From Utricularia gibba (lineage: Eukaryota > Streptophyta > Magnoliopsida > Lamiales > Lentibulariaceae), in contig NEEC01000008.1 of the NCBI GenBank assembly GCA_002189035.1, positions 2,604,001 through 2,668,000 of the forward strand: DNA of 64,000 bases. The letters run 5' to 3'. The notes below the pieces were generated by a model. That model made no database searches. It was not told where the DNA came from and saw nothing but the letters and a program-made list of their open reading frames with translations. Within the stretch, counting starts at the first letter, position 1. Every line of letters begins with the position of its first letter. The translations under genes and the position numbers were made by a program. Shown here one piece after another: positions 29,889 through 45,300 of the stretch.

Positions 29889-31724
29889 TGCGACTCGGGC
29901 CTGGTAAGAGTCTGAGAATGTTTCCATGTGGCTGCTGCCGCTGGTTTTCTCATGCTGCAGATTAAAAACTCCAGTAAGCAGGTTTTTGTTCTAATTTGGG
30001 TTGTGTGAGAATAAGTAGATGTGAGAAGACGAATGTGTCATTTTGTTTTCCCTGCCTTTCATTTGTTTTTTTAGTGTTTTAAATAGTAAAAAAAAACATG
30101 AATATTTATTTTGTATGATTGGATAGTGATTTAAATCGTAATTAAATTATATTTTTTTAATTCTTTTTTTTCAAAAAAGCAAAATGATGTGATGAAAAAT
30201 TAGATCGTATATTGCGATTCAATAGTGATTCAAGAACCATTGAAATGTAATTTATTTTTTATATTTGTGGAAATTTGAATTTGATTTAATCGTTATTATG
30301 AATGATTTGAGATTCAAAATGATCTTTTTAATATATATAATCTAAGAGTAGGGTTCTAAACGATGTCTTATGAAAGAAAGAAAACCAGACAAAAATGACT
30401 CTGAAAATCTTACATCACATCATGCCTGAAGTTTAATGTCTTAAACACTTTGGAGTCCAATACTTGTTAATTAAAAATACAAAAAAGAATGAGACAAGTT
30501 GGTCTGAAGCAGGGCTACATTACAAACTGTCGAGGAAACAAACATAGGGTATTGGAAACGGCAAGAGCCGCATGAATTTATTTAACTGAATTATTATTAT
30601 TGTGATCAGTCGTTGTTTGACATTTTTTGTGCAGGCAGCCCAAAAAACACCTTTTCTTTGATCGCAAATGGGAGAACTGAACTTGAAAAATACGAATATT
30701 TTAGGGCTCAGTGATTCCACCTCAGAGCTTGGACCCCAAGTGCTGAATCTGAACATACTTTGAAACGTTGTGGTGTATGTAAGATTGAGGTTAATTTGAA
30801 AAGTAATCATCTTATTGTTACTGTGTGTGAAAAGTAATCATCCTAAAAATTTGTTCTCACTATGTAAGAGAAAATGTCAGGATGGTTACTTTTCAAAACG
30901 AGCCGTAAGATTGTGATTCCACTTCAAGAGACGCATCTTGTAAGTACAACCGACATTAAGATTCCTTAACACAGACACGATACATGCAGCAAGTAAGCTG
31001 TTTAAGTGGCTAATCAGTTCAACTTGAACACTGTTCCTCTGATGAGTCGATTAGGTCGCCCGCGGCAACAGAGGGAGGGCGAGTGTTCAGAATAGACCGA
31101 TAAATGACTCATTAATGACTGATAATCCACATTTGGCAGCTGATCCCGGCGGGTGTCACGTTCTTCAATTATTTACCTCTGACTTTTTGGCCCAGTAGCT
31201 CTAAATGCAGCATCTACACTACGCCTATTGAGTTCAGAAGAAAGCAAGGCACCCCCACCCCACCCTACCCCTGCGTAACTGGTATTCCTGGTAAAGAAAA
31301 CATCGTGTTATTGGCCAGATTTTCGTCATTTTTATTACCCTTTTGCTTGCTGCATCAGTTCTTTTTTCAGGGAGGAGCAATTGAATTCCTGGTGACTGAA
31401 GAGCTAACAACGTTTTGCATGTGATGAAAGAGGAGTTAGTGAACAGCTAACTCAGAAACTAGTTTCATCGCCGACCTAGAGATACAGTAAACACTGGATA
31501 GTCAATGGTTGACTGCTATAATGCTTCCTCTCTTGCAATATTTGTTATTTATTTTCTATTTTAACTGTATATTAAAAAAAATAAACCCTAGCAACATTTA
31601 ACTAGGGATAGGATTTGTGGGTCTTAACCCTTGTGATCCAAGTTTCACCTTCAAAAGTTGAGTGGGTTTTGATGATCTTCTTGAGCTGGTTCTGAGTTAC
31701 TTGTGAGGTTTCTGGGGGTCTAAA
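29889..31724. other. Intergenic region
   Basis: RUS6 3' UTR comes first, then AT-rich spacer (30060-30370). A mixed region from about 30900 to 31720 presumably holds the promoter and leader of the first methyltransferase copy. No other gene is recognised. Confidence 0.5.
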
Positions 31725-33053
31725 ATGGTGAATCGGGATGTTTTTAAAGATTACATTCCGAGACTACCATCTTTCAAGATGAATCAGAACAAGCTGATGC
31801 TTGTGATCCTCATGTTGATCATGCTGACAAATGTCCTCACACTCTACACTTTCGTCAGCCCTCATGCCAACGTCTTGTATTCTATCTCTAGAACATCCAA
31901 GTTCTCGACTTGGGATTCGACTACGCTGATCCTCAAGCTGAACGCCACTAGGGATGAACTTATGGTCAGGGATTTGCAGATTGAGGACTTGAGGAGTGAG
32001 CTGAAGTCGGCCAAGTCTGTGATAGAGGACCTTCAGTCCCGTCTCAGGGTCGCGGCGGAGAAGAGTCTGGAGGTTAAGTATGATCATCTTGTGGCTGATT
32101 TAAGCGAAGAAGCCAGCCTAGCTGTTAAGCCTCATCTGCTTCCTCTTGGAAGTACACCGAAGATAGGGAAAGAGATCGCCTTTTCCTATGGCGCGGGTTG
32201 CTTGAAGTTCAAACAAGAATTCAAAAAGTACATGAGCTATCAGGTCGGAGGGGAGTGTCCCGTGGATGATCATTTTGCTCAAACACTTATGCTTCTGGGC
32301 TGTGAGCCCCTTCCGAGGAGGCGGTGCCGTCCAAAGTCTCCGGTGAACTACGTCGAGCCGACTCCGTTGCCCAAGAGTCTGTGGACAACTCCATCGGATA
32401 CCACTGTTGTATGGGATCCTTATCCTTGCAAGAACTACACTTGCTTGAGTCAGAGGTGGCGCTACCCTGGGAGCTACGATTGTAGCGATTGTTTCGACTT
32501 GAGAGGCAAGGAATCATACAGATGGACGTTCGACAAAGATCTCGATTACGGAATAAAAGAAGTTCTTGCTTTCAAGCCGCCGGGAACTGTTCGCATCGGC
32601 CTTGATATAGGCGGCGGATCGGGAACTTTCGCAGCCCGTATGATGGAAAGAAACGTGACCATCATCACGACTTCCATGAACTTCGATGCTCCCTTCAATA
32701 CCTTCATCGCATCAAGAGGGTTGCTGTCAATGCACATCACCATCTCACAGAGGCTTCCCTTCTTCGAAAACACCCTCGACATCGTCCATTCGATGCACGT
32801 CTTGAGCCACTGGATCCCGGATACAATGCTTGAGTTCATTCTGTATGATGTCCATAGGATACTGAGGCCTGGAGGCCTATTTTGGCTCGATCATTTCTTT
32901 TGCTTCGGTTCCCAGTTGAATGCAACCTACGCCCCCATGTTTGAACGTCTCGGTTTCAAGGTATTGAGGTGGGATACCGGGAGGAAGTTGGATAGAGGGA
33001 TTGATAGGGATGAAATGTACCTCTCGGTTGTCTTTGAGAAGCCAATGACCTAA
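31725..33053 (+). CDS. Membrane-anchored SAM-dependent methyltransferase-like protein, copy 1
   Basis: Intronless, 442 residues, ATG at 31725. One N-terminal transmembrane segment (about residues 24-46, LMLVILMLIMLTNVLTLY) makes it a probable type II Golgi/endomembrane protein. A short coiled coil follows (about 65-110). The lumenal part has a conserved cysteine block (YMSYQVGGECPVDD, GCEPLPRRRC, PCKNYTCLSQRW, YDCSDCFDL) and a class I methyltransferase fold: glycine motif GLDIGGGSGTFAARM, then SMHVLSHWIP and RILRPGGLFWLDHFF. It belongs to the plant family of At1g29790-like probable methyltransferases, whose substrate is unknown. It is related to the pectin methyltransferase-like group only in general layout. 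The neighbouring copy 2 is a tandem duplicate in the same orientation. Confidence 0.88.
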   Translation: MVNRDVFKDYIPRLPSFKMNQNKLMLVILMLIMLTNVLTLYTFVSPHANVLYSISRTSKFSTWDSTTLILKLNATRDELMVRDLQIEDLRSELKSAKSVIEDLQSRLRVAAEKSLEVKYDHLVADLSEEASLAVKPHLLPLGSTPKIGKEIAFSYGAGCLKFKQEFKKYMSYQVGGECPVDDHFAQTLMLLGCEPLPRRRCRPKSPVNYVEPTPLPKSLWTTPSDTTVVWDPYPCKNYTCLSQRWRYPGSYDCSDCFDLRGKESYRWTFDKDLDYGIKEVLAFKPPGTVRIGLDIGGGSGTFAARMMERNVTIITTSMNFDAPFNTFIASRGLLSMHITISQRLPFFENTLDIVHSMHVLSHWIPDTMLEFILYDVHRILRPGGLFWLDHFFCFGSQLNATYAPMFERLGFKVLRWDTGRKLDRGIDRDEMYLSVVFEKPMT

Positions 33054-33830
33054 ACCCCAAACAGCAGCAATTGTATTTTTTTCCCCACTTTCCTCTTAAC
33101 CCCAGCTCATATTGTAGAGTAAATGACATGATGCCATGACTCCCTCCCTTCTTCCTGCAACAAAGGTACACCTCTCCATGGATTTATTCTTCCAAAGGGA
33201 GCTTCAACTTCACTAAAAACCAGAAAATATATCATCAGTTACAACACATTCAGGTATGCAATTCTCTGGCCTTCTTTAAATGTGACGCCTTTTCAACATG
33301 GGAGATAAGCACCACCTTGAATCGTATAATGCGAGCTAATTCTCGGCAGATGAAGCAGTTAGTGCTAAATCCAGCTGAAGTTACATGCGCAAGCTTGAAT
33401 GTGTTGTGTCCAAAACTCAGTACAAGACAAATAGTTGAATGTGTTGTGTCTGTTTTGGATCAATTTAGCCCGTTGACATATCTCCTTGGATGGAGCTATT
33501 GTGTACCAGTTCCACTTTGGGCGGAACAGATCTGCTACTAGTATATTGATTATATTTATTTAACACAGGTCAAATAAGTGAACTCTATAGACAGGGTTTG
33601 GCAAACGTTGAATGCAGAAAATGCTTTTCATGTAGTGCACTGATTTCCAAGGAACTCGACACTTGCTTGTAAAATTCAAAGCATTTGGTATTTAAAAAGT
33701 ATTCTACGCCATCACACCTTCAGAAGACATGAATGTAGAATTTTTTTTCTTGTGTGAGTGGATTTGGATGAACAAACTTTGACTTGTTCTCCTGCTGTCT
33801 GTGGTGAATCCAGACGATATTGAAAAGGGC
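33054..33830. other. Spacer between the tandem methyltransferase copies
   Basis: It holds the 3' UTR of copy 1 and the promoter of copy 2. 33801-33830 is the counterpart of the first ten codons of copy 1 but begins with GTG, not ATG. No other gene is seen. Confidence 0.55.
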
Positions 33831-35114
33831 ATGATGCAAACTCCATTTGTGAATCAGGGGAAGAGCGTTCTTATGCTTGTGATCATCATCGCAATGAATT
33901 TCATCATACTCTACAGTTTCATTTTTCTTCATGGCGGCACCGTGAATGACGCTGTAAAAAGTTCTTCAAACTCCTCCTCTTGTGATTCAGCCACTCTGAT
34001 TCTCCAGCTTAACGCTACACGACATGAACTCCATGTCAAGGAATCATTAATCGATAACTTGAAGAAGGAACTGGAATCGGCACAATCCCAGAACGCTGAG
34101 CTTCGATCACGTCACATGAACGCTAATTCTGAGGCTAAGTACCGTGATCTTGTTGCTGGATTTAGTGGGGAAACCAAGATCATTGTTGACTCTCACAAGC
34201 TTTTCTTCGGAAATACTCCCAGAATAGGGACGAAGCTTCCATTTTCTTATGGAGCTCGTTGCTTGAATCAAAAGCGGGAGCTCATGAAGTACATGAGTTA
34301 TCAAGTTGGAGGTGAGTGTCCCATCGACGATGATCTCGCTCAAACTCTCATGCTTAAAGGGTGTGAGCCCCTTCCTAGGCGGCGGTGCTACACGAAGACA
34401 CCACCCAATTACGTCGAGCCGACTCCGTTGCCGGAAAGCTTGTGGTCAACTCCATCGGACAAGTCCATCATCTGGGATCCCTATCCGTGCAAGAACTACA
34501 CTTGCTTGGCACAGAGATGGCGCCTCCCTGGGAGCGAGAGGTATGACTGCAAGGATTGTTTTGATTTAGAAAACGAAGCATCTAGATGGACGCACAAAGA
34601 TGATCTATACTACGCATTAGATGAGGTTCTTGCACTCAAACCTGGTAGAACGATTCGCATCGGCCTGGATATAGGCGGCGGATCGGGGACCTTCGCAGCT
34701 CGTATGATGGAAAGAAACGTGACGATCATTTCAACTTCCATGAACTTCGATGCACCTTTCAATAGCTTCATTGCATCAAGAGGGTTGTTGGCGTTACACA
34801 TTACCATCTCACACAGGCTTCCATTTTTCGACAACACCCTCGACATCGTCCATTCGATGCATGTGCTGAGCCACTGGATCCCAGATATCATGCTCGAGTT
34901 CATTCTTTACGACATCCACAGGGTACTGAGGCCCGGGGGCCTTTTTTGGCTTGATCATTTCTTTTGTTATGGCTCACAGATGAACCAGACCTACGTCCCC
35001 ATGTTCAAGAGCCTCAGTTTCAAGATCCGAAGGTGGAGTATTGGGAAGAAATTGGATAGAAGAATTCAAGATGAAGTGTACATTTCAGCTATCTTTGAGA
35101 AGCCATTGGGATAG
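33831..35114 (+). CDS. Membrane-anchored SAM-dependent methyltransferase-like protein, copy 2
   Basis: Tandem duplicate of copy 1, intronless. The frame aligned with copy 1 begins at 33801 with GTG GTG AAT, where copy 1 has ATG GTG AAT. I therefore start it at the next in-frame ATG (33831), giving 427 residues. That start keeps the transmembrane segment (VLMLVIIIAMNFIILYSF) close to the N-terminus. The coiled coil, cysteine block (GECPIDDDL, GCEPLPRRRC, PCKNYTCLAQRW, YDCKDCFDL) and methyltransferase motif GLDIGGGSGTFAARM are intact, as are HVLSHWIPD and RVLRPGGLFWLDHFF. Divergence is concentrated in the N-terminal stem, and the catalytic half is strongly conserved between copies. This suggests purifying selection on both. 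The substrate is unknown. Confidence 0.87.
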   Translation: MMQTPFVNQGKSVLMLVIIIAMNFIILYSFIFLHGGTVNDAVKSSSNSSSCDSATLILQLNATRHELHVKESLIDNLKKELESAQSQNAELRSRHMNANSEAKYRDLVAGFSGETKIIVDSHKLFFGNTPRIGTKLPFSYGARCLNQKRELMKYMSYQVGGECPIDDDLAQTLMLKGCEPLPRRRCYTKTPPNYVEPTPLPESLWSTPSDKSIIWDPYPCKNYTCLAQRWRLPGSERYDCKDCFDLENEASRWTHKDDLYYALDEVLALKPGRTIRIGLDIGGGSGTFAARMMERNVTIISTSMNFDAPFNSFIASRGLLALHITISHRLPFFDNTLDIVHSMHVLSHWIPDIMLEFILYDIHRVLRPGGLFWLDHFFCYGSQMNQTYVPMFKSLSFKIRRWSIGKKLDRRIQDEVYISAIFEKPLG

Positions 35115-35819: not shown

Positions 35820-40814
<4,995 letters not shown>

Positions 40815-42342: not shown

Positions 42343-45300
42343 TCACTCCACTTGATTCAGATTTGATACACGATAATTTCCACTGAAGGACATGAGGCTT
42401 TCGTTGCTGTAAAGATGGCGAGGACTTCTGGTAGAGGCACTGGGATGGCTGGCTGAACTTGATGCAGAATCCAGATTAGGATTGAGCCCAGCTTCTTCCA
42501 TTATCTTCTCTATCTCTTTAACCACCTCGCTCATGGAGGGACGGTCATGGCCTGATTCTCGAACACAGTTCAGGGCTAAATCAACAAACATCTGAACACT
42601 TGTTTCAGAAGCAGATGAGGCAACTATTGGATCAAACAGTTTATGAAGGTTATAAAAGCTCTTGGTTTTATCCATGGTTTCCATCACCTCACGAACAATG
42701 TATCTGCCTTTCTCAATCGGGGCTCTGGAAGTGAGAAGCTCCAACAGCAATACGCCAAAGCTATATACATCACTCTTTTCTGTTAGCCGCTGTGTCATGT
42801 AATACTCAGGATCCATATATCCCTGTCCATAGAAGAAACAAAAGTTCGTTGGGATTATAAGAATTCAGCAAACTCGGTAAGGTTAGACTACCATTGTCCC
42901 TTTAACTTGAGTGGTGAGATGATCTTCTGCCGGCTCTAGTAAAAACTGCTTTGAGAGACCAAAGTCGGATACTTCGGCATTCAGTCGCTGATCCAACATG
43001 ATGTTTTGTGACTTTATATCTCTGTGTATGATGGGAGGGTTCACAAGATCATGCAAATATTGAATCCCTTTTGCTGCTCCCAGAGAGATTTTAAGTCTCC
43101 TTGCCCAGTCCAATCTAACCCCCGTCTTCCCTATAAAATGTCCACAACCATAACCCATCAAGTTCCCATCCAAACAAAAGGATACAAAATCAAGATAGGA
43201 AACCTTTACAGGGTAAAAAATTAAATGAATCACTTGACTTGGTGGGGCTGATAAAGTTAGAAGTACCTGACAGACTATCCTTCAAACAACTGTTTGCAGC
43301 ATACTCATACACAAGCATTTGTTCCCCTCGCTCAAAGCAATAACCCACCAAGCTGATGACGTTCTTGTGATGAACCCTTGACAGGAGTTGAATCTCAGTT
43401 CTGAACTCAAGTTCACCTTGCAAAGATCCCTCTCGAGCTCTTTTGATGGCAACTTGCTGCCCATTCGGCAGTGTTCCTTTATATACCTGAAAGAGCATAT
43501 TTAAAAAAGATAAACAATGACATCAAATGAAAACCCTGAGGATATGCAAAGTTTCATAATGCAGCGATCCAATAATGTTTTTTGTATTATCGTTTCTAAA
43601 ACACTCATTGTTACAGACATGATGAAATTTCAACACAAGCGACATTGATGCTTCTACAAACCTGAAAGAGATTAGAATCAAATACAAACCTTTCCATAAC
43701 CACCAACCCGATTGAATTCATTTCTGAAAAATTATTGGTGCACTGCTTAAGTTCTTCAAGTGAGAAAAACCTTGGTCCTTGTATCTGAGGAAATCCACCA
43801 CTTTCCCATGGCGCTTCAACAAAATATAAAGAGTAAGAGCTATGACAAATATAATTATAGCGTGTGAAATACTACATTTTACCAATAGGATCCTTCCTGT
43901 GTAAAGGTGTTTCATGCCTTCTCCAACGGATGGCAGCATAAATTCCAACAAAAAGCAATAACAAAAACAGGACAGTTCCTCCAACTGCAGCACCAATGAT
44001 TGTGTTTCGTGAACCGGTTGTTGATCCTGGAAGATGACATAGAAATCAATTTTCAGAAATGAAAATGTTCTCTTAGTAGATTACGTAGTGAGGACGCTTT
44101 ACATTACCAGGAAATTTATACACCTCTGCAATGAAAAAATAAGGCCCAAACTACCTGGGTGTCTTGATAGACAGACTGCTCAACTTACCACCAACCATTA
44201 CAATCCCAGACTCATTGAAAACGGTGTCGGATGGAAAAATATCTACTCCAAGCAATAGATAGCCGTCCGTACGTTTAACAGGATTACTCAGAGAAACAGA
44301 GTCTACAGGAAGAGATCTAAATGCTTCCATCATGTTACTTTGAAGGGCTACGAAGGCTGTTGTGTTTCCAAGATCAGAGAAAGAAGGAGCGCGAAAATAT
44401 AATTTTCCCCTGTACGGGTATGCACATCTGCAATTTGGGCTGGATCTCATATATTTTCCACAAATAGGCATGCAGTTTTCTCGGGGCGATGAGTATGGAG
44501 GTCCCGAATTAGATTGCTGAGAGGTTCTACAGTAGGCCTCTGTTGATGTGGAGCATACTGGATTTTCCACAAGTCTTAAGTGAGCAGAGAATACAAGCGT
44601 CAGAGAAAGATAATAAATCATGAACGAAATAGATGGCAATCAGTATCCGATACTCACATGATCTCGACACCTGTTCCAGTGCCTGGAACAACATTATTAA
44701 TTGAGTTTTTCTGCAAATCAACGCGCCGCAGGCGTGTACTAGGACTAGGCCCCAGATCTAGTGTCCCATTAATATGGTTGTTCTTCATTGTACTAAAAAT
44801 CCATCAAAGAGAAAAATTTATATTACTGAGTAAATTCACAAAAGAGATTAAGTCAACGACTCACACAGTTTGCAACTCGTAAAGACTGAAAAGTTCTCCT
44901 GGAAGTTCCCCATGAAGATGCACGTTTTCCAAGACACTGCGGGTACGGGTGTTATGGAAAACGTTAGAAGCATTAGATTGAAAAGAAAACCTTTCGGACG
45001 AAGCAATTGTATGTACAGTGTTGTCAATGAGAGCAACTCAAGCGATGAAAACCACGGTGGAATATCCGTCTCTTCAAAGGAATTATTGCTCATATCCCTA
45101 CAAGTAATAGTATTTTTAGTCATGCACTTATGAACTAAACTATAATGAGATGGGTGTTTAAAAAAATACATAATATTTACAGATAATGTTATGACATACA
45201 CATAGGTCAGCTGAACCATGCCGCTTAGGTCAGGCAAGGGTCCATCCAACCTATTATTCGACAAGTACCTGAAATATTTGACTCACACGCAATCTTAGTT

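Follow-up and report, generated by a model that had tools for sequence, protein, structure and literature searches.

A candidate newly intronised in-frame segment enclosing the nonsense codon of an HPCA1-like receptor kinase gene in Utricularia gibba

Exitrons are exonic introns that by definition contain no stop codon; compared with ordinary introns, their splice sites are weaker (Marquez et al. 2015, PMC4484396). They have been listed in the LRR receptor gene FLS2 (review PMC10985678). Intronization of exonic sequence has also been reported, in small cases (Roy 2009, PMC2740785). Among LRR receptor relatives, the rice protein XA21D is without a transmembrane segment (TM) and kinase and gives partial resistance (PMC3655273), and Arabidopsis HPCA1 is an extracellular hydrogen-peroxide sensor (PMC12040379). 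Here we analysed a window of 64,000 nt of Utricularia gibba DNA (contig NEEC01000008.1, positions 2,604,001 to 2,668,000) that holds two tandem HPCA1-like receptor kinase genes, copy 1 and copy 2, the second of which carries an in-frame TAG within a potentially spliceable segment of exon 14.

The copy 2 segment resembles exitrons in being internal to a coding exon, bounded by canonical GT-AG splice signals (with a marginal branch point), a multiple of three in length and derived from coding sequence. It differs from them in containing a TAG, so that it is not stop-free, and in having unusually strong sites. In its testable features, the segment fits intronization of exonic sequence as described (PMC2740785): both boundaries lie in frame inside an ancestrally coding exon that is still coding in relatives, and the donor is of the GTRAGT type. 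It differs from the described cases in that the piece carries a stop, so that unspliced mRNA would be non-functional. We regard it as a candidate case of known intronization and not as a new kind of event. If the stop were used, copy 2 would resemble XA21D as a paralogue without TM and kinase, but the TM and kinase exons of copy 2 remain downstream with their frame conserved. HPCA1/CARD1 (LRR-VIII-1; PDB 9vbv, 9vbd, 21az) has ectodomain homology, the cysteine motif and the LRR-TM-kinase order in common with copy 2. What sets copy 2 apart from HPCA1/CARD1 is the stop, the divergent sequence immediately 5' of it and, as assembled, a kinase frameshift.

Exon models were built for three genes: copy 2 (47158-42343, minus strand), its tandem paralogue copy 1 (40814-35820, minus strand) and paralog 3 (C451:205001-214500, locus L026). 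All three have 19 exons separated by GT-AG introns (18/18 in copy 2), and the exon phases of copy 2 agree with those of copy 1 and paralog 3. A search of the assembly (516 contigs) with exon 14 recovered paralog 3 as the sole family member besides copies 1 and 2, and the copy 2 locus is single-copy in the assembly. The exon model and ectodomain homology identify copy 2 as an HPCA1-like (LRR-VIII-1) LRR receptor kinase gene. Its exon 14 (44108..44574, minus strand) encodes the post-LRR, cysteine-containing part of the ectodomain and is alignable with HPCA1 along its entire length. This domain has no Pfam model; in copy 1 it matches the HPCA1 ectodomain structures 9vbv, 9vbd and 21az with E ~1e-36. 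Four cysteines that align with HPCA1 ectodomain cysteines are kept in copies 1 and 2, and the post-LRR cysteine motif is present (NCMP-IC...NCRC in copy 2 versus NCSP-C...TCRC in HPCA1). The VAIK, HRD and DFG motifs are present in kinase exons 17-18 (42892..43486, minus strand), which are followed by exon 19 with the remainder of the kinase and the C-terminus (42343..42822, minus strand). Adjoining the tandem receptor kinases on the plus strand are two further tandem paralogous genes (31707-33050 and 33783-35111); their open frames are long, and a methyltransferase-like motif is present (IGLDIGGGSGTFAARM).

The in-frame TAG lies at 44151..44153 on the minus strand (CTA on the plus strand), at residue 533 of the unspliced reading frame and directly before TTT GGG CCT TAT, the start of FGPYFF. 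This is where a preliminary description of the stretch had placed it. That description also had the upstream exons intact, and all 13 exons before exon 14 are indeed open, the TAG being the only in-frame stop ahead of exon 16. It further took the stop to be a one-step change from CAG. The aligned codon of copy 1, which is without the stop, is CAA; that of paralog 3 is TAT and Arabidopsis HPCA1 has Ile at this position, so a CAG ancestor is an assumption. By the exon model coordinates, five exon junctions lie downstream of the TAG, four of them >50 nt away. A stop upstream of exon junctions is the usual configuration for nonsense-mediated decay (NMD), and unspliced copy 2 mRNA, ending at the TAG, is probably an NMD target. 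Across the assembly, in-frame stops were seen in about 3 of the 50 strongest kinase matches and in about 15 of 150 in all, counts that are upper bounds because some of the matches extend into introns. Receptor-kinase exons that are broken or mis-spanned are therefore not rare in this assembly.

Every exonic GT and AG of the three genes was scored with weight matrices derived from their 54 introns. An internal donor, GTG|GTAAGT (44183..44188, minus strand; first intron base 44188), scored 9.0, the highest of 401 exonic GTs in the three paralogs, compared to 6.5 for the normal exon 14 donor. It lies 81 nt before the end of exon 14 and is in frame with exon 15 too. The acceptor ATTTTTTCATTGCAG|A (last intron base 44126) scored 13.2, the highest of 482 exonic AGs and above all 54 real acceptors. 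The TAG falls between these two sites, which delimit a candidate in-frame intron of 63 nt, a multiple of three (GTAAGT...TTATTTTTTCATTGCAG; 44126..44188, minus strand). Their summed score of 22.2 would rank third, bettered by 2/54 real introns. Such pairs are rare in coding sequence. No other exon of the three genes contained a pair with a donor of at least 6.5 and an acceptor of at least 7 at 60-300 nt. Stop-to-stop frames of at least 250 codons from the same genome were used as coding proxies, and 50,430 nt of these other long ORFs contained no pair with a sum of at least 20 at up to 120 nt and none of at least 22 at up to 300 nt. In-frame pairs with a sum of at least 16 covered 0.12% of bases in these ORFs, and when synonymous codons of exon 14 were resampled, 0.2% of trials produced an in-frame pair of equal strength around the stop; these splice-pair probabilities were computed after the pair had been seen and are indicative only.

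Other properties of the candidate intron are less distinctive. Its length is just under that of the shortest of the 54 real introns (65 nt; the shortest in copy 2 are 65, 66 and 69 nt), and its A+T content of 57% is exon-like, falling near the bottom of the intron range (0.52-0.78). The sole usably placed branch-point-like YTNAY, 15 nt from the 3' end, is marginal. The homologous segment is plain coding sequence in copy 1, paralog 3 and HPCA1, and copy 1 and paralog 3 are without the GT and AG at both candidate boundaries. A further potential donor right at the stop, CAG|GTAGTT at 44154 (score 5.4), was rejected because a splice from it to exon 15 is out of frame.

We put the probability at roughly 0.5 that the TAG segment is a newly intronised in-frame segment of an HPCA1-like kinase gene that is spliced out together with the stop. 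The piece of copy 2 exon 14 at 44188-44126 would have acquired near-consensus splice sites and become removable as a small in-frame intron, the TAG going with it. The spliceosome would use both sites, or would join the same donor to exon 15. Spliced mRNA would then encode a membrane receptor kinase minus 21 (or 27) extracellular residues, with the one-base deficit in the kinase (see below) taken as an assembly error. In conceptual translation, removal of the 63 nt skips the stop and keeps the transmembrane segment and the kinase frame. Joining the internal donor to exon 15 also skips the stop and remains in frame (...GIVMVG-GSTTGSRNT...). The flanking splice signals thus predict transcripts that skip the TAG codon, an outcome that the preliminary description had listed only as a refutation. 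Conservation of FGPYFF extends to copy 1 and, almost fully, to HPCA1 and paralog 3, and the motif is the last beta strand in a predicted model of the copy 1 domain (low confidence, pLDDT 59.5). It is absent from all three products (unspliced, 63-nt-spliced and donor-to-exon-15), so even the spliced receptor would be altered.

Between copy 1 and copy 2, dN/dS was 0.31 for the LRR region, 0.37 for exon 14 before the stop and 0.19 for the kinase, at a dS of ~1. A dN/dS measurement on the kinase half had been suggested as a check, and with the kinase at 0.19 versus 0.31-0.37 for the ectodomain there is no sign of a kinase freed from constraint. Dating the stop by dN/dS was rejected, since pairwise dS among the paralogues is ~1 or saturated. 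In relative-rate tests with paralog 3 as the outgroup, copy 2 evolved faster than copy 1 before the stop (63 versus 37 unique amino-acid changes, chi2 6.8), and the kinase difference was not significant (28 versus 18, chi2 2.2). Among columns common to copy 1 and HPCA1, copy 2 had changed 5/8 from the donor to the stop compared to 13/58 upstream (Fisher p 0.03). From the stop to the acceptor (FGPYFFIA), it had changed 0/6. This means that the segment was under coding constraint until recently and that any intronisation is young.

The kinase had been described as wholly intact, which does not hold for the gene as assembled. Its motifs are present, but exon 16 (43690..43813, minus strand) is one base short in the glycine loop, with GGG at 43709-43707 in place of GGGG. 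It reads ATC GGG TTG GTG, and a GGGG would keep I-G-V-G-G-Y-G-K in frame. After the deficit, the frame shifts and ends ~70 residues on, within exon 17; if the deficit is real, spliced mRNA is still broken, at residue 684. Rescue of the frameshift through another donor, ATCGGGTTG|GTGG, was rejected because the glycine loop is deleted. Similar one-base errors occur elsewhere in the assembly. Two of the five cytosolic HSP70 genes (L031 and L032) are frameshifted by one base, at an expected GGGG and an expected CCCC, and paralog 3 is one base short at a G run in exon 19 (L026:7043-7494). In copy 1, a T run at ~35.89 kb (window ~35894-35877) is one T too long, and the gene is out of frame thereafter (35820-35900); past this run, its other frame gives a SYSG-type end, which we take to resemble the usual C-terminus of the family. 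Short-homopolymer one-base frameshifts are therefore found in all three paralogues as assembled. G4/C4 runs showed no general shortage in a test of the assembly, so the errors hit only a minority of runs. At roughly one homopolymer length error per 3-4 kb of coding sequence, the odds are about even that copy 2 contains a spurious frameshift, and we do not count the exon 16 deficit as a lesion. It is probably an assembly error, given the same signature of four G or C reduced to three in the HSP70 genes and paralog 3. More broadly, these length errors mean that frameshift-based pseudogene calls in this genome need care. A GH9 gene beside paralog 3 also seemed frameshifted on reading, and its tblastn match was too fragmentary to count. 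The HSP70 genes at C241:12834-18511 and C304:2235549-2238296 had identical match scores, which suggests a duplicated haplotig or a recent duplication.

The main rival to splicing is a recent pseudogene or null allele, in which the TAG, perhaps with the base loss in the P-loop, is too recent for decay and the splice-like signals are coincidental. The preliminary description had raised a very young pseudogene, and we consider this a possible reading, with about a third of the probability. The in-frame stop and the frameshift as assembled speak for it, as do the faster change of copy 2 before the stop (and slightly, not significantly, in the kinase) and the upper-bound counts above, by which in-frame stops are not rare among kinase matches. 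However, all other exons, splice sites and kinase motifs of copy 2 are retained, the frameshift bears the signature of an assembly error and the TAG could be bypassed by in-frame splicing, as it sits in a spliceable segment whose strength has no match in 50 kb of other ORFs. Splicing of the segment best accounts for the position of the single stop, in an otherwise well-kept gene, within its one spliceable in-frame segment. The excess of changes between donor and stop and the constraint on the kinase also speak for it, whereas the marginal length, exon-like composition, marginal branch point and loss of the conserved FGPYFF strand speak against it.

Two other explanations appear less probable. 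The TAG may reflect a wrong base or a haplotype collapse in the assembly, with copy 2 intact, which we consider unlikely. Single-base indels at short homopolymers do occur in each of the three paralogues and in two of the five cytosolic HSP70 genes. A true C would give CAG, a CHG context in which base calling can suffer from cytosine methylation in plants. However, the identified errors are all one-base homopolymer length errors, whereas a false TAG requires a substitution; the four open HSP70 reading frames are free of in-frame stops; and the copy 2 locus is single-copy in the assembly. The secreted or shed ectodomain put forward in the preliminary description, translated and acting on the intact neighbour, copy 1, as a decoy or modulator, found no positive or specific support and is the least probable of these readings. 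The signal peptide, LRRs and four HPCA1-aligned cysteines of copy 2 all precede the stop, and XA21D provides a precedent (PMC3655273). Against this, the five downstream exon junctions make the mRNA NMD-prone, the product would be without the conserved FGPYFF strand, conservation is not confined to the ectodomain (kinase dN/dS is below ectodomain dN/dS), and a strong in-frame splice pair flanking the stop would be superfluous for a translated decoy. A regulated splice switch, in which the HPCA1-like ectodomain would be made in soluble form from unspliced mRNA and spliced mRNA would yield a membrane receptor kinase whose extracellular stalk is shortened, is an improbable extension of the splicing reading. 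If it were true, one gene would supply both a sensor and its soluble competitor, adjoining a stop-free paralogue.

A nonsense codon does not by itself make an otherwise well-kept plant receptor gene dead, and in-frame cryptic introns and homopolymer assembly errors should be checked before pseudogene or decoy calls are made. If splicing of the TAG segment is false, copy 2 would be an ordinary recent null allele. If it is true, copy 2 would offer an intron of recent origin in a family of extracellular redox sensors, and one that can be compared with paralogues in which the segment is still coding.
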